A stretch of DNA of 43,449 bases from Candidatus Zhuqueibacterota bacterium (GCA_029262005.1 JAJDAG010000195.1:1-43449); one strand, 5' to 3'; counted from the stretch's first letter, positions 7,610 through 22,944 are shown. Notes: generated from the sequence alone by a model not told the origin. Numbers and translations are program-made.

Positions 7610-8136
7610 TGTGATCCTCCTTTTAGTTTAAAATATTTACCTGAATACAGAACAAGTACCGGCTTCTGTTAATAAAATTCCGCACATAGTAATGAAAACC
7701 ATAAACACCAGTCTATTTGAAAATGTTGAACGGGCAACAAACCCGGACATAAAAAAACAAAGACTCTCTTCATAAAGATCATTTTATTTGCATATTCAGG
7801 ATGCTCTAGTGATTCACTTGCTCCAATTCACAAAGACAAAGTTTCCGGGTTTATTCTGCCACATAAAACGCCGTCCCAGCCAGGGAAATAAAAACATGCG
7901 TCCTGACACTGGCCGACTGCGGACCTCAACCCTTCTTTCTTTGCTGGGTTCCCGGGTGAACATGGCAGCCAGACCGTTTCCCTTGACTTTGTTACACTCA
8001 AGTCGTAGATTTAACATGTTACCTTTTCAAAGTTTCCCAATCTATCTTTTCCGTACTTGCGATTGGTGGCAAACAATAGTTCCTGTTGCAGGTATTTTGA
8101 AGTCATTGTAAATACAAGATTCCACTCTGGGAGTTC
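7610..8136. other. 527-base intergenic region between divergent TPR and kinase genes
   Basis: AT-rich region with no convincing coding sequence on either strand. The left end holds the ribosome binding site of the leftward TPR gene; the right part holds a sigma70-like promoter for the kinase. Short open frames here lack ribosome binding sites and coding character. Confidence 0.6.
7983..8011 (+). promoter_or_regulatory. Sigma70-like promoter upstream of the Ser/Thr kinase
   Basis: TTGACT (7983-7988) and TAGATT (8006-8011) are separated by 17 bases. A start of transcription near 8018 would leave a leader of about 125 bases. Confidence 0.4.
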
Positions 8137-15599: not shown

Positions 15600-15615
15600 T
15601 GGCATGATGGTTGAC
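15600..15615 (+). promoter_or_regulatory. Sigma54-like -24/-12 promoter of lipoprotein A
   Basis: TGGCATGATGGTTGAC differs at one position from the element at 21868-21883. It fits the sigma54 layout TGGCAY-N5-TTG; the last bases are AC rather than the usual CA, so the -12 half is imperfect. Transcription would start near 15625, about 50 bases before the ATG. Confidence 0.5.
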
Positions 15616-15675
15616 CTAAGTGGGTTAGAAATGATTGCAAAGCAATTATTAATCACAAACCCATGGAGGTTTATC

Positions 15676-16395
15676 ATGAAACGATTCATGTTTTTCTTAG
15701 CTGTTTTAATGCTGATGGCCGGGTTTGGCTGCGACAACATACAAAACCCTGCATCGGGTAGAGCGCTAAAACATGAGGATGGAAGCCACAAGCTAAATAC
15801 AGAAACGATAAATGCCGGGCAAAGGGCGTCCTCTGCACATACAAATCATTTTGCAGGTGGAATAATCAGAGTGCCGGAACATTTTGACTCCATCCAGGGG
15901 GCTGTCGCTGCTTCTCAGCCCGGGGATAGTATCATCGTAAATTCCTCGGGCAGTCCTTATAATGAGAACGTGACCATTGATACCACTAAACGCCGCCTTT
16001 ATATTGAAACTGATGGTTCGGTGATAATCAATGGCAGCATAAAGATTCTTGCGGATAGTGTTACAATCGACAGTTTCACTGTCAATGTAACATCTGCCAA
16101 TAGTGGAGGAATTCACATTCAAAATGCCTCGGGTGTGAGGATTTTGAACAACCGGGTTAAAGGGGGAGGTTCCGGAGGGGATGGTATTGTGCTCAGTGGG
16201 TCAAATTGCCTGGTAAAAAATAATGTTTGTGCTGACCTAACATACGGCATTTATTTGCTTTATGAATCGAACAACAACGTTGTGACTGAGAACATTGTTT
16301 ATTGCAACACTGTTTCCAACATCATTGACCTGGGCACCGATAACATTATTTTCGAAAATGATACCGGGCCTATTTATGGTAGCGACTGTTTGTAA
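15676..16395 (+). CDS. Beta-helix lipoprotein A (NosD/pectate-lyase-like fold)
   Basis: A 239-residue predicted outer-membrane or periplasmic lipoprotein. The N-terminus has a lysine/arginine start, a hydrophobic stretch and the lipobox AGFGC. From about residue 68 it reads as a right-handed parallel beta-helix: IRVPEHFDSIQGAVAAS, then turns rich in N/G/S such as GIHIQNASGVRILNN, GIVLSGSNCLVKNN and GIYLLYESNNNVVTEN. No catalytic site is obvious. It is a paralogue of the protein at 21937; both end with a beta-helix rung IFEN and a terminal Cys-containing SDC or PDC. ATGGAGGTTT before the ATG is a strong binding site, also conserved in the paralogue. Confidence 0.82.
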   Translation: MKRFMFFLAVLMLMAGFGCDNIQNPASGRALKHEDGSHKLNTETINAGQRASSAHTNHFAGGIIRVPEHFDSIQGAVAASQPGDSIIVNSSGSPYNENVTIDTTKRRLYIETDGSVIINGSIKILADSVTIDSFTVNVTSANSGGIHIQNASGVRILNNRVKGGGSGGDGIVLSGSNCLVKNNVCADLTYGIYLLYESNNNVVTENIVYCNTVSNIIDLGTDNIIFENDTGPIYGSDCL

Positions 16396-16692: not shown

Positions 16693-19600
16693 ATGAATCG
16701 TGTTCATTTTTTTGCTCTGATTTTATTTGGTCTAGTCCGGTTTTCTCTTGCTCAAGCGCATATGCAAAACTCATTGGCTGATCAATATTTTTCCAGAGGT
16801 GAGGCATTGGCTAAAGAAGCGCAGCATGACAGTGCAATAGTTTATTTTCAAAAAGCCGGTGTTTTATATAAAAAGAATGAGAATTGGCAAAAGTATGTAA
16901 ACTGTTACAACAAGATGGGGAATTCTGCCTGGCGAACAGGCGCACCTGACCAGGCAAAGGAATGGCTGGAACTCGCTTTGCAAATTGGTAAAAACAAGTT
17001 GGACGGTCAACATCAGGCTGTAGCAAAAAGTTATCACAATATTGGCAATGTTAATCTCGTTACGGGAGATTATGATAGGGCGCTGGAATTTTACCAAGAA
17101 TCTGTTAAAATCAATTTTGCTGTTCTTGGCAAAAGACATCCCGAGCTGGCAAACACATTCAATAATATTGGCATAATTTATCGTAAGAAAGGGGAATATG
17201 GCGAAGCATTAAAGTTTTATCAAAAGTCTTTAAAAATTAGATTAACCAGCTTGGGTGAGCGACATCCCAGGACAGCAGATAGCTACAACAATATCGGTGA
17301 TGTTTATTTTGAGTGGGGGGATTTTGACCGGGCACTGGAATTTTTTAACAAATCTCTGAGTATCCAAATAAAAACATTGGGAGACAAACATCCTGCCGTT
17401 GCTACCGGCTATCACAACCTGGGACGGGTTTATTGGGCCAAAGGAGATTATGATCGTGCGCTGGCAGCCAATCAAAGATCTCTCAAAATAAGAGTAAAAG
17501 TTTTGGGTGAACAACATCGGGATGTTGCGGAAAGTTACTTAAATATTGGCTCGGTTTATTGGAGCAAAGGAGATTACGACCGCGGGCTGGAATTTTACAA
17601 AAAATCACTGGATATAAAGAAAACTGTTTACGGTCCGCAACACCCGGAACTGGCGTCGACTTATAACAACATTGGCAGCGCCAACATGAACAAGAAGGAA
17701 TATGACCGGGCGCTGGAATATTTTACAAAATCACTTAATATTCGATTGCAAACCTTGAAAAAACAGCATCCTTTGTTGGCACATAACTACACCAATATTG
17801 GCCAGGTATATTGGCGGAAAGCAAACTACGAACAAGCGCTGAATTATTTCAACAAAGCGTTAAATGTCAGCTTGAATACGTTGGGCGCGCAAAATTCCGG
17901 AGTTGCAATAATTTATAATGACATTGGCCTGGTTTTTGGGAAAAAAGATGATTCCGAGAGGGCGCTTGATTTCCACCAAAAAGCTCTAAATATTCAATTA
18001 GCTGCTCTGGGCACACACCATCCTGATTTGGCGGCAACTTACAATCATTTTGGTAATATCTATTTTGAACGTGGAGATTTTGCTCGTGCTCTCAAACATT
18101 ATCACAAAGCTTTGCAAGCGAATGCGCCGGCATTCACTAATTCGGATTTAAAACGTAATCCTTCACTGGCTCACATTCTTTCCAAAGAACTGTTGTTGGA
18201 AACTCTTCAGTTGAAAGCCCGGGCCTTAGTTCACAACCATGCCGTTTCCGGGAATCTCAGCGCTCTTAAAGCAGCTTTTTCAGCTTACCGGCTCATCGTT
18301 CAGTTGATCGATCAAATGCGCAGTGGTTACTCGGCAGAGGGTTCAAAATTGTTTTTAGCAGAAAAAACAAACCCGCTTTACGAAAAAGCGATTCAAACCG
18401 CTCTGAACTTGTCAAGGGTCACAGGCGAAACACAGTATGAAACCCAGGCATTTTTATTTGCGGAAAAAGCCAAAGCTGCAGTTTTGTGGGAAGCGCTGCA
18501 AGATTCCCGCGCCAAACAGTTTGCCGGAATTCCCGATTCTCTATTGTCAAGAGAAAAAGATTTGAGAATCGATTTGGCTTTTTATGACACCCGCATTCAA
18601 GAGGAGAATCTGAAAAAGAAGAATCGTGACAGCTTGCTGATCGCTGATTTTGAAAACCGCTATTTTGATTTGAACCGGCGTTATGAGCAATTAATCAAAC
18701 GGTTTGAAAGCGACTTCCCGCAATATTACGCATTGAAATATCAGACCGGGATTGTGGCGGTTGCGGAACATCAGCAGAAATTAGATGAGCAAACAACCAT
18801 TCTGGAATATTTTGTCGGTGATGGCACGGTCACTATTTTTACAATATCTAAATTCAATTTTATGGTGACAGTGGCGCCGCGGGATATTTTGCTGCAAGAC
18901 CGGATTGAGCAGTTGCGTTTGGGCATTACAAAAAATCATGGCGAAGGAAATTATCAGCTTTACGCCCGCAGCGCTTTCCAACTCTACAAAACACTAATTC
19001 AACCGGTCGAGGCGCAACTGCAAACGTCTGAAATTATTATCATTCCGGACGGTATCTTGAACAAAATCCCTTTTGAATGCCTTTTGACAGCAGACTTCGC
19101 AGCGGCTAAAACCATCGATTACCGAAACCCGCCTTACTTGATGAACAAATTTACCATCAGCTATGCTTACTCAGCTAACCTTCTGGATGCCACGACCGGA
19201 CAACCGCACCAGCAGACGCCAAATGATTTCCTGGCATTTGCCCCGGTTTTTGTCGATGGCCCGACTAGTGATTCGAGGAAGGTAGGTCTGTTACAAAACA
19301 CTCATGCTCCGGATACCAGTTGGTCAACCGACAAGATTCACCTGCCGGCGAGTAAACAGGAAGTGCTGGGCATTCAACAACTGTTCCAGAATAGCTATGG
19401 TCTGGCTGCAAAATTAAGCAGGTTGTTTTTAGATAACAAGACCCGTGTTTACCTGGAGAACGCAGCAAACGAGGATAATTTTAAAAAAGAGCAGTTATCG
19501 AATTATCGTTACCTGCACTTGGCCACTCATGGTTTTGCCAACAAAAATAGCCCGGATCTCTCTGGGCTGTCACTAGCCCGACAAAGCAATTCCGCAGAAG

Positions 19601-19941
19601 ATGGTGTGCTCCATCTGCGTGAAATTTACAACCTGCAGTTAAATGCAGACCTGGTGGTGGTGAGTGCCTGCGAAAGCGGCGCCGGAAAGCTGGCAAAAGG
19701 CGAAGGGCTGATTGGCCTGACTCGTGGCTTTATTTATGCCGGCGCCAGGAATCTGGTGGTTTCTCTTTGGAAAGTCAATGACTGGAGCACAGCGGATTTA
19801 ATGCAAGATTTTTATGCGCAAATACTCGAGGGTAAAAATAAAGCGCAGGCGCTTGGTGAAGCCAAAAAGCAGTTAATACTCAGCAATCCCGATTATGCGA
19901 AACCTTATTATTGGGCGCTTTTTATTTTAATTGGTAAGTAG
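16693..19941 (+). CDS. Exported TPR-CHAT caspase-like protease
   Basis: A 1082-residue protein with a signal peptide (about 1-22, ending LAQA), about ten 42-residue kinesin-light-chain-like TPRs (roughly 35-480; for example NNIGDVYFEWGDFDRALEF), a helical middle (500-720) and a C-terminal CHAT domain (about 790-1080). CHAT domains are caspase-fold cysteine proteases. The dyad is intact: H946 in YLHLATHGFA and C993 in VVVSACESGAG, followed by LTRGFIYAGARNLVVSLW. TPRs usually recognise the substrate or control the protease. RBS AAGGAAACGGGG precedes the ATG. Its 3' end overlaps by 20 bases the convergent anti-sigma gene. No CRISPR or gasdermin gene was recognised. The substrate is unknown; the anti-sigma factor is a reasonable candidate (inference). 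Confidence 0.9.
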   Translation: MNRVHFFALILFGLVRFSLAQAHMQNSLADQYFSRGEALAKEAQHDSAIVYFQKAGVLYKKNENWQKYVNCYNKMGNSAWRTGAPDQAKEWLELALQIGKNKLDGQHQAVAKSYHNIGNVNLVTGDYDRALEFYQESVKINFAVLGKRHPELANTFNNIGIIYRKKGEYGEALKFYQKSLKIRLTSLGERHPRTADSYNNIGDVYFEWGDFDRALEFFNKSLSIQIKTLGDKHPAVATGYHNLGRVYWAKGDYDRALAANQRSLKIRVKVLGEQHRDVAESYLNIGSVYWSKGDYDRGLEFYKKSLDIKKTVYGPQHPELASTYNNIGSANMNKKEYDRALEYFTKSLNIRLQTLKKQHPLLAHNYTNIGQVYWRKANYEQALNYFNKALNVSLNTLGAQNSGVAIIYNDIGLVFGKKDDSERALDFHQKALNIQLAALGTHHPDLAATYNHFGNIYFERGDFARALKHYHKALQANAPAFTNSDLKRNPSLAHILSKELLLETLQLKARALVHNHAVSGNLSALKAAFSAYRLIVQLIDQMRSGYSAEGSKLFLAEKTNPLYEKAIQTALNLSRVTGETQYETQAFLFAEKAKAAVLWEALQDSRAKQFAGIPDSLLSREKDLRIDLAFYDTRIQEENLKKKNRDSLLIADFENRYFDLNRRYEQLIKRFESDFPQYYALKYQTGIVAVAEHQQKLDEQTTILEYFVGDGTVTIFTISKFNFMVTVAPRDILLQDRIEQLRLGITKNHGEGNYQLYARSAFQLYKTLIQPVEAQLQTSEIIIIPDGILNKIPFECLLTADFAAAKTIDYRNPPYLMNKFTISYAYSANLLDATTGQPHQQTPNDFLAFAPVFVDGPTSDSRKVGLLQNTHAPDTSWSTDKIHLPASKQEVLGIQQLFQNSYGLAAKLSRLFLDNKTRVYLENAANEDNFKKEQLSNYRYLHLATHGFANKNSPDLSGLSLARQSNSAEDGVLHLREIYNLQLNADLVVVSACESGAGKLAKGEGLIGLTRGFIYAGARNLVVSLWKVNDWSTADLMQDFYAQILEGKNKAQALGEAKKQLILSNPDYAKPYYWALFILIGK

Positions 19942-20722
19942 AAGGTAGTTGCTCCAGCAGTTTTGTTGCTTCCTCCCGGTAAGCAACCGCCTCAGACGCC
20001 AGCGCCTTGTTCAACCACTGACGGGCAGCAGACACATCCTCCTGCATGAGAAAAGCCTTTGCCAGAAAGAAAGCAATTTTGTTGCGATTAACCGGATCTT
20101 CGGTTTTCACAAAAGCATTGTGCAAATGGGTTATGGCCTGTTCAACTTGTTGTGGTTCGAAATAAGGAAAAATTCCCCATTTGGTTTGCCGGGCAGATAA
20201 CAGCGCTTCAGTCCCACGTGCAAATTCACCTTTGGTAGCAGCTGGCTCACCTCTGGTTTCGTGTCTGAGATTCTTTTGCTGCCACTGATTTAATTCAGCA
20301 AGTCCGATGTACTCCGGCAGGCTCAGCCGATACCCTCCGTAAAAAGCCATGATAAAGATGACTGCGGCAACGCCGACATAGCGCCAAAGTGTTGGAAAAA
20401 ACGATGCAAGCGACAATGTTTGTTGTCGTGGATATTTTTTAAGTCGTGGTGTCTCTGCTGTCTCAATTTTCCTGGAAACATTTTGCCAGGCAGTTTCCAC
20501 ATTCAGTGTATTTCGAGGCCGTTGTGAACGGGCAGCGTTGTGGATTTTTTTTGTATCATTAAAGAATTTCTGATTTTCCTCGGACTCGTTCAGCCACTGT
20601 TGCACTGTTTTCTGCTCTGCTTCAGTGGCATCTTCTTCGAGTGTTCGGAATATCAATTCGAGATAGGAGAACTTGTTCATCGTTTTTTTAGGGTATTTGA
20701 ATTTTTCCGGTTGATAATTCAT
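19922..20722 (-). CDS. Membrane anti-sigma factor with C-terminal TPR-like domain
   Basis: A 266-residue protein. The N-terminus (about 15-65; YLELIFRTLEEDATEAEQ, then QQWLNESEENQKFF) matches the sigma-binding domain of FecR-type anti-sigma factors. One membrane helix spans about 112-131. The C-terminal part lacks the FecR beta domain and instead has paired helices (QAITHLHNAFVKTEDP, KAFLMQEDVSAARQWLNKAL) like TPRs, predicted periplasmic. It lies 191 bases downstream of the ECF sigma gene in the same orientation. Neither candidate start has a good ribosome binding site; the second methionine (20680) fits the family N-terminus better. Predicted to hold the sigma factor inactive until an extracytoplasmic signal arrives. 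Confidence 0.82.
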   Translation of the reverse strand: MNYQPEKFKYPKKTMNKFSYLELIFRTLEEDATEAEQKTVQQWLNESEENQKFFNDTKKIHNAARSQRPRNTLNVETAWQNVSRKIETAETPRLKKYPRQQTLSLASFFPTLWRYVGVAAVIFIMAFYGGYRLSLPEYIGLAELNQWQQKNLRHETRGEPAATKGEFARGTEALLSARQTKWGIFPYFEPQQVEQAITHLHNAFVKTEDPVNRNKIAFFLAKAFLMQEDVSAARQWLNKALASEAVAYREEATKLLEQLPSTYQLK

Positions 20723-20913
20723 TTTTCAATATTCGTGATCCCGACCTGTTCTAAATACGCATCAGGAGCCAAAACCCCTACCATGAATTTAATTGCAATT
20801 TTTCGGGCAAACAGTTTAATACGCATCAGTTGCAAAAATCCCTACCGTAAAAAAAATATATTTGAATAATCAATCTCGTATCCACGCAGAAAGTGGGTAC
20901 GAGAATAGGAAAA

Positions 20914-21459
20914 TTAAGTATCCAAGAAAGGTTGTAAACGCTGCCGAATGATATTAAAGGCTTTGGTTTTGCGTTTATCCACAGTTGCAATTGACACACT
21001 TAAAAGGTCGGCAATTTCCTTGTCCTTAAAACCACGCAAGCGCATATTAATAATCACCCGTAAAGGCTCCTCAATATCCTTAATTGCTGTGTGCAATTTT
21101 TGAGTTAATTCCTCATTCTCTTCCTCTGCACCCTCAACAGGAAAATCATGCTCTTCCAGGGAAAGATGGCGGTTTCTGGGCATGCGCAGCCAACTCAGCG
21201 CCTGATTGCGGGCAATGACTTGTAGAAACGCTTTTGCGGATTTCTCCGGATCAAGCGATTTGCGGATTTCCCAAATCTTTATAAAGGTGTTTTGGCAAAG
21301 GTCATTTGCCGCTTCATCGTTGTGGATGAGTTGCCAGATAAGATAATGGATGCTTTCAAAATGCCGGCGAAAGAACACCTCATAAGCGGCCTGATTGGAA
21401 TTCCTGATGGCTTTTACCAATTCTTTGTCAGCTGCGTTATTGAGATTATCATCGGGCAT
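20914..21459 (-). CDS. ECF-family RNA polymerase sigma factor
   Basis: A 181-residue sigma70-family factor with only regions 2 and 4, typical of the ECF group. Region 2 reads FFRRHFESIHYLIWQLIHND, then NTFIKIWEIRKSLDP and AFLQVIARNQALSWLR. Region 4 has the helix-turn-helix LRGFKDKEIADLLSVSIATV. The open frame extends upstream to 21606, but AAGGAGGGAGAGG just before the ATG at 21459 fixes the start. The gene precedes the anti-sigma gene, and its own promoter region faces that of lipoprotein B. It probably controls an envelope response; target genes are not identifiable here. Confidence 0.93.
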   Translation of the reverse strand: MPDDNLNNAADKELVKAIRNSNQAAYEVFFRRHFESIHYLIWQLIHNDEAANDLCQNTFIKIWEIRKSLDPEKSAKAFLQVIARNQALSWLRMPRNRHLSLEEHDFPVEGAEEENEELTQKLHTAIKDIEEPLRVIINMRLRGFKDKEIADLLSVSIATVDKRKTKAFNIIRQRLQPFLDT

Positions 21460-21707
21460 AGATTTATTCCTCTCCCTCCTTTTATACAATAAATGAAGTA
21501 AATATGCAAGTAGTTCGTGTTCAATGTTGCCATTTGGAGGACAAGGCGAGGTATGGGGATTTCTCTTTGATGCGTAAGATAGCCAAACGCAAATAGTGGA
21601 AATCATTTTAGAGATTTTACAGGAAAAGTTGAAATCATGAATTGCACAAATTATTTTTTAACTCCATTTAAACCACTGCTACTTGCCAAACAGAGGCGTC
21701 AAAATTC

Positions 21708-21936: not shown

Positions 21937-22944
21937 ATGAAACGAAGAATGTTTTTACTGGTTGCTTTGACGATTATGACCGGGTTCGGTTGTAATCAGG
22001 ACAACAACCCGAGTTCACCGAAAGTGGAACAACAAACAACTACGATGGAAGAGTTGGCACAACTTTATCAACAGCGTGAAGTTGAGTTTCTTGCTTCAAT
22101 AGCAAAAGACTCCAAGTTGTCCCATACAGTAAATAGTAATTGCGATGCGGAGGAAATCCATGTGCCTGAAGATTATTCAACGATTCGGGCGGCAGTCAAC
22201 GCAGCCTGCGCAGGATCAAGTATTTTTGTGCACGTGGAGGGTAGTCCATATAATGAAACGGTCACAGTTTCGCAAAATGACCTGAAGATTATTGCCAAGG
22301 GAGATGTTACCCTGAATGGGAATTTCATTGTGCAAAGTCATGGTGTTCGCATTGAGCAATTTAATTTCATCATTCCCTATTCTCCTAATATTGGTGTTTG
22401 GGCCCTCAGCACTGCGTCAAGTCTGCAAATCCTCAATAACAATTTTAGTGGTACATCCGCCAGAGTTGGCGTTGTGTTGAACGTTGGGAGCAAAGATTGT
22501 TTGGTTGAAAACAATCAGGCCAGTGGTCTTATGGCGGGAATCTTAGTATCTAGTGACAGGCATGCCATTCGTCATAATACATGTTCCAATAGTCTGCGTA
22601 GTGGAATCCAGGTTTTTGGTAACAATTGCAAACTTACCAACAATATTACAAATTCGAACACTAGTGATGGAATTTCCATAAATGGCATCAACAATGTTCT
22701 TGAAGGCAACATTTGCAATGGAAATAGTCTCGAAGGAATGGATGTCCAGTCGGCTCAGAACACGATCGGTCCGGGAAATGTATGCAATTTCAACCAGGGT
22801 TACGGTATATCACTAACTTCCAGAAATGGTGGTAATACTGTAACCGGTAATCGATTTCAATGCAATAGAAATGGCGCCATATACAACCTAAGCTCTAGCA
22901 ATAACATTTTTGAGAATATAACCAGTTCACCTGACTGTGATTAA
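21937..22944 (+). CDS. Beta-helix lipoprotein B (NosD-like)
   Basis: A 335-residue lipoprotein with signal sequence and lipobox TGFGC, then a linker of about 45 polar residues, then a right-handed beta-helix beginning IHVPEDYSTIRAAVNAACAG. Rungs include GVWALSTASSLQILNN, GVVLNVGSKDCLVENN, GIQVFGNNCKLTNN and GISLTSRNGGNTVTGN, about four more rungs than paralogue A. It ends IFENITSSPDCD, close to the A ending. No catalytic residues are evident. It is preceded by the same ATGGAGGTTT binding site. Probable surface or periplasmic binding protein produced under sigma54 control together with A. Confidence 0.85.
   Translation: MKRRMFLLVALTIMTGFGCNQDNNPSSPKVEQQTTTMEELAQLYQQREVEFLASIAKDSKLSHTVNSNCDAEEIHVPEDYSTIRAAVNAACAGSSIFVHVEGSPYNETVTVSQNDLKIIAKGDVTLNGNFIVQSHGVRIEQFNFIIPYSPNIGVWALSTASSLQILNNNFSGTSARVGVVLNVGSKDCLVENNQASGLMAGILVSSDRHAIRHNTCSNSLRSGIQVFGNNCKLTNNITNSNTSDGISINGINNVLEGNICNGNSLEGMDVQSAQNTIGPGNVCNFNQGYGISLTSRNGGNTVTGNRFQCNRNGAIYNLSSSNNIFENITSSPDCD

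Follow-up and report, generated by a model that had tools for sequence, protein, structure and literature searches.

An exported TPR-CHAT protein encoded beside an ECF sigma factor and its anti-sigma factor raises the question of whether a protease controls transcription across the cell envelope, in a neighbourhood where CRISPR seems to play no part. The window (the whole stretch analysed, 43,449 nt) comes from Candidatus Zhuqueibacterota bacterium (GCA_029262005.1 JAJDAG010000195.1:1-43449), and the module in question lies at 16693-21459. The original prediction had placed three genes there and proposed that CHAT acts on the anti-sigma factor, by cleaving or sensing it. All three open reading frames were found at the predicted positions (Table 1), with the CHAT and anti-sigma genes convergent and sharing 20 nt at their 3′ ends (19922-19941), the overlap that had been foreseen.

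The three proteins of the module

The CHAT protein has a TPR array to about residue 480 and then a C-terminal CHAT domain, with Pfam matches to TPR_12 (E 9e-108) and to CHAT PF12770 (E 4.6e-68). The latter scores 230 bits against a curated cut-off of 24 and, with a His/Cys dyad present, the protein belongs to that family. The dyad had been thought intact, and a sequence check placed H946 within ATHG and C993 within SACESG; the N-terminus (MNRVHFFALILFGLVRFSLAQA) is signal-peptide-like, both by sequence and in a scan for hydrophobic N-termini. An AlphaFold2 model (pLDDT 81, pTM 0.72) gave Foldseek matches to Csx29, separase and DdvA.

The neighbouring protein has one transmembrane segment, an adjacent ECF gene, an N-terminal part similar to FecR-type anti-sigma factors, and homologues that carry zf-HC2 (10/17) and TPR matches; these features class it with the one-TM anti-sigma factors, and it is predicted to bind the sigma factor. 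A profile scan gave no FecR-domain match, and weak matches to DUF4880 and TPR. In the structure model (pLDDT 82) helices at the N-terminus are followed by a single long helix of hydrophobic character and then by an ectodomain, also helical, which matches TPR folds in Foldseek (probability 1.00, TM by target up to 0.8, but all E > 0.03); the family profile matches TPR structures too. The protein thus falls outside the FecR family, and its predicted ectodomain is TPR-like in place of FecR, as had been proposed.

The ECF sigma gene does lie next to the anti-sigma gene, ending at 20914. Its open reading frame begins at 21606, and the ATG at 21459 (residue 50), which had been taken as the gene's boundary, is likely to be the true start because it is preceded by a strong Shine-Dalgarno sequence (AAGGAGGGAGAGG). 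The protein matches Sigma70_r2 (PF04542, E 5.7e-11, above cut-off), PF08281 (E 1e-4, below cut-off) and TIGR02985 (E 3e-26, under the cut-off of that model), and is classed on this basis with the ECF sigma factors, which are marked by Sigma70 r2 and r4 regions and no r3.

Table 1. Features of the sigma/anti-sigma/CHAT module, in window coordinates
Feature	Position	Strand	Evidence
Exported TPR-CHAT cysteine-protease-like protein, 1082 aa	16693..19941	+	Pfam TPR_12, CHAT; structure model; Foldseek
CHAT protein, signal-peptide-like N-terminus, residues 1-22	16693..16758	+	Sequence; hydrophobic N-terminus scan
CHAT domain, residues 760-1082	18970..19938	+	PF12770
Catalytic His946 codon (HLATHG)	19528..19530	+	Aligned residue His in 54/56 linked CHATs
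Catalytic Cys993 codon (SACESG)	19669..19671	+	Cys in 56/56 linked CHATs
Asp1030 codon (LWxVxD), candidate S1 acid for P1 Arg	19780..19782	+	Asp in 53/56 linked CHATs
One-TM anti-sigma factor with predicted TPR ectodomain, 266 aa	19922..20722	-	ORF, model, Foldseek, homologues
Cytoplasmic anti-sigma domain, residues 17-89	20456..20674	-	Model; similarity to FecR-type anti-sigma N-termini
Anti-sigma transmembrane helix, residues 110-134	20321..20395	-	Model and hydropathy
Arg157-Gly158 codons, juxtamembrane R-[GS], candidate cleavage site	20249..20254	-	Conservation; CHAT-linkage specificity weakened
Periplasmic TPR-like ectodomain, residues 139-258	19949..20308	-	Model, Foldseek, family profile vs TPR structures
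ECF sigma factor, start at residue 50 of longest ORF	20914..21459	-	ORF, profile matches, Shine-Dalgarno

Two related genes for beta-helix (NosD-like) lipoproteins flank the module, one on each side (15604-16395(+) and 21937-22944(+)). PADLOC matches beside the module were confined to broad families (kinase, RtcR/PspF-like and TPR), and we did not count them as defence.

Recurrence of the gene neighbourhood

The source genome has seven CHAT genes, and for four of them a sigma gene lies no more than 4 kb away (p 2e-4). A sigma gene paired with a one-TM anti-sigma gene occurs at four of its CHAT loci (the window, C145, C165 and C45), of which C145 has just the three genes in an operon (sigma, anti-sigma, CHAT), and C165 and C45 include an additional zf-HC2 gene. 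The remaining three CHAT genes are without such a pair and one of them is without the dyad.

Of 70 CHAT genes sampled from 40 related genomes, 37 have an ECF sigma gene within 6 kb, where about 7% would be expected from the sigma density of the source genome (p~3e-24); these neighbourhoods were picked among the matches listed, on family and E-value and irrespective of linkage. Around CHAT genes, sigma genes are 10 times denser at less than 4 kb than at a distance of 4-8 kb (p 5e-10). Over all loci there are 72 sigma-CHAT pairs, with an anti-sigma gene between the two in 57; 31 of these 57 form an operon and 26 are convergent, like the window. Operon, convergent and divergent layouts all recur over several phyla: named loci with the module, in operon and in window-like convergent form, come from Bacteroidota, Ignavibacteria, Calditrichia, Acidobacteriota, Aminicenantes and Gemmatimonadota, and the window's own gene layout is found among named strains, for example in Flagellimonas hymeniacidonis and Agaribacillus aureus. 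Distances between CHAT domains correlate with those between their sigma factors (r 0.48), a value reached in 0 of 2000 within-genome partner swaps.

The original prediction would have been weakened by CHAT genes in relatives lying apart from sigma pairs, and here the outcome is mixed: about half of the relatives' CHAT genes, including a group with a lost dyad, have no sigma link, yet the linkage is far above chance. The expectation that the three-gene neighbourhood is conserved was upheld, the genes behaving as a conserved, co-diverging unit. We are highly confident that the sigma/anti-sigma/CHAT module is real and widespread, and that its genes are functionally linked.

A search for the TPR-type anti-sigma family, with a profile built from CHAT-linked members, gave five new close homologues, of which four adjoin a CHAT gene and the fifth is at locus L195; more distant homologues are mostly without CHAT. 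At L195, a 62-aa open reading frame resembling the middle of TPR-CHAT proteins (7945-8133(-)) converges on an intact anti-sigma gene, and is probably a decayed CHAT gene. At two Aminicenantes loci (L126 and L130) CHAT genes lie on both sides of one sigma/anti-sigma pair.

Comparison with Craspase, DdvA and other systems

The type III-E CRISPR system had been named as the known parallel: there Csx29 cleaves Csx30, an inhibitor of an ECF sigma factor (PMC10028731). The parallel holds in that one locus brings together a protease of TPR-CHAT type, an ECF sigma factor and an inhibitor of sigma, and the CHAT model resembles Csx29 in fold (Foldseek TM by target up to 0.60), with a profile match of only E 0.09 or worse. 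Craspase, however, is cytoplasmic and its Csx29 is activated by Cas7-11 and target RNA, whereas the window CHAT is predicted to be exported and has no Cas protein in its neighbourhood. Csx29 also has Ser where window-type CHATs have Asp1030, and Csx30 has not been described as an anti-sigma factor with one TM segment and TPRs. Type III-E Craspase is defined by a Csx29 that partners Cas7-11 in a type III-E locus with Csx30, and the window module does not belong to it. No Cas gene was recognised among the window proteins scanned, and the RAMP genes of the source genome, which probably mark a type III CRISPR locus, lie on two contigs that have no CHAT gene (C62 and C44); the proposed independence from CRISPR is thus in keeping with what was found.

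Csx29/Csx30 is, however, not the sole closest parallel. DdvA of Myxococcus xanthus (PDB 8rot, 8rw5; Sci Adv 2024 eadp1053, cited in PMC12288465) is, by structure entry 8rot, a transmembrane anti-sigma factor fused to a CHAT domain; it holds the ECF sigma factor DdvS, the controller of a defence island (PMC12288465). Both systems have an ECF sigma factor, a one-TM anti-sigma factor and a CHAT domain, and in alignment the CHAT of DdvA retains His (ATHG), Cys (AACEGG) and the Asp motif after them. Sequence similarity is weak (E 0.006). In DdvA the anti-sigma domain, transmembrane segment and CHAT are in one polypeptide, while in the window the genes are separate and CHAT is a separate, exported protein, so that the anti-sigma factor is not of DdvA type. 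By these comparisons the window module resembles both DdvA and Craspase and belongs to neither.

More distant likenesses are to separase, which has a TPR-like helical array and a CHAT-like protease (Foldseek E 3.6e-14) but is eukaryotic, cytoplasmic or nuclear, cuts cohesin and involves no sigma factor; and to regulated intramembrane proteolysis of the DegS/RseA/RseP type, where a one-TM anti-sigma factor controls an ECF sigma factor and which the site-1 then site-2 cutting proposed below would follow. DegS is a PDZ serine protease, whereas the proposed site-1 enzyme here would be a clan CD cysteine protease. A search of the open literature, outside whose scope an ECF classification paper and two DdvA papers fall, found no paper describing a CRISPR-free CHAT/ECF pairing, and our claim of novelty is bounded accordingly.

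What CHAT may do in the module

The module would work as follows. The ECF sigma factor would be held by the one-TM anti-sigma factor, with its ectodomain towards the periplasm; the exported TPR-CHAT cysteine protease would occupy the same compartment and receive a signal through its TPR array. Once activated, CHAT would cut the anti-sigma ectodomain as a site-1-type protease. The likeliest place for this cut would be the linker next to the membrane on its outer side, with R157-G158 as the candidate site, and a general site-2 protease would then free the sigma factor. The three M50 proteases of the source genome could provide this last step. CHAT as input, its proteolysis of the anti-sigma factor, the cut site and the site-2 step are all what we infer, and we put at about even the chances that this is a three-component envelope signalling module with CHAT as a protease acting on the anti-sigma factor.

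Several features of the linked proteins bear on this. The dyad Cys is kept in 56/56 linked CHATs and the His in 54/56 (the two non-His cases look like one-column misalignments), which points to catalysis. A hydrophobic N-terminus is present in 47/52 full-length linked CHATs and a C-terminal TM anchor in 19. By the positive-inside rule the anti-sigma N-terminus is inside in 38/57 proteins, with 8 ties and 11 against, and the conserved anti-sigma domains are consistent with this orientation; CHAT and the anti-sigma ectodomain are thus predicted to be on the same outer side of the membrane, as first suggested.

Other TPR-CHAT proteins of this family have lost the His/Cys dyad (HLAVPG, SKSKR etc.; L011 6834-10139, L026, L028-L030, L032 and L033) and are candidate pseudo-proteases; the one at L011 adjoins cytochrome bc, rhomboid and amidase-like genes. 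Open frames of ~2800 codons with two CHAT domains also recur, usually one per genome (G017:C2, G027:C48, G030:C5 and others).

CHAT could instead be the output: the sigma factor would turn on an envelope CHAT protease with other targets (defence, remodelling or cell death), the anti-sigma factor itself sensing the signal. Gene order by itself does not separate input from output. CHAT is last in a sigma-anti-sigma-CHAT operon in 31 pairs, where an autoregulated sigma factor would raise CHAT, and DdvS controls antiphage genes (PMC12288465); on the other hand, in 26 pairs a convergent CHAT gene is outside the sigma operon, a promoter-like pair common to the upstream regions of sigma and CHAT was not found, and DdvA bears its CHAT on the anti-sigma factor itself. 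We consider CHAT as output unlikely, if a serious contender. The search for a shared sigma-type promoter covered 21 convergent modules, with a perfect 12/12 match in 5 against 2.1 expected from same-locus controls; these sequences are AT-rich and were judged uninformative.

It is improbable, in our estimation, that CHAT is a non-proteolytic co-sensor whose TPR array binds and shifts the anti-sigma ectodomain, like a separated DdvA ectodomain. CHAT is physically joined to the anti-sigma factor in DdvA (PDB 8rot), and both window partners have TPRs; selection for binding only would, however, not need the dyad, which linked CHATs from different phyla retain almost without exception. Moreover, the ectodomain is TPR in some modules and, in many others, beta-sandwich-like (GLYYWKLE...GKF; from sequence only). 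TPR-TPR docking, so far as such sequences tell, cannot be a general rule, because some linked ectodomains look beta-sandwich rather than TPR.

A reversed relation, in which the anti-sigma TPR ectodomain would inhibit or chaperone the CHAT protease and sigma control would set only its supply, seems decidedly improbable: pairing and co-divergence carry no direction, but the anti-sigma factors retain a TM segment and, on its cytoplasmic side, zf-HC2 or FecR-like domains, the design of a signal receptor. Finally, the view that the genes are neighbours by chance or at operon level only, with no link in function, might draw on the unlinked half of CHAT genes. It is very hard to reconcile with the tenfold sigma excess within 4 kb and with the three layouts (operon, convergent, divergent) that recur in several phyla.

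Returning to cleavage of the anti-sigma factor by CHAT, a conserved Arg followed by Gly/Ser occurs right after the TM helix of the anti-sigma factors (R157-G158 in the window). R[GS] is present 15-33 residues past the TM in 27/53 linked anti-sigma factors and in 1/20 controls, mainly FecR-type (p 3e-4; background 12%). Because it is also present in 7/15 TPR-type anti-sigma homologues without a nearby CHAT, we demoted it from a CHAT-specific signature to a candidate site, and it may be there for another protease or for structural reasons. It is missing from some linked anti-sigma factors, e.g. L094 (LMGG). On the enzyme side, separases cut after a P1 Arg bound by a conserved Asp (PMC10317155), and by analogy we infer that Asp1030 of CHAT (LWxVxD) corresponds to it; the residue is Asp in 53/56 linked CHATs, and unlinked CHATs keep it too. 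This S1 Asp was not seen to vary together with absence of the Arg from the anti-sigma factor: L094 keeps the Asp.

Tentatively, and with somewhat less assurance than for the module's own mechanism, we suggest a widespread CRISPR-independent envelope class in which ECF anti-sigma factors would have an exported caspase/separase-like CHAT as their site-1 protease, its cut falling after an Arg close to the membrane, with Csx29-Csx30-CASP-sigma and the fused DdvA as specialised relatives. The recurrent CHAT/sigma pairing suggests that the protease-controlled sigma switches of type III-E systems and of Myxococcus DdvA have a widespread relative that does without CRISPR; for this relative we propose anti-sigma cleavage. 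If this is true, the sigma-inhibitor protease of Craspase and the CHAT-bearing anti-sigma factor DdvA would fall into a single broad class of sigma switches linked to proteases, and caspase-family proteases would gain a role in bacterial envelope signalling.
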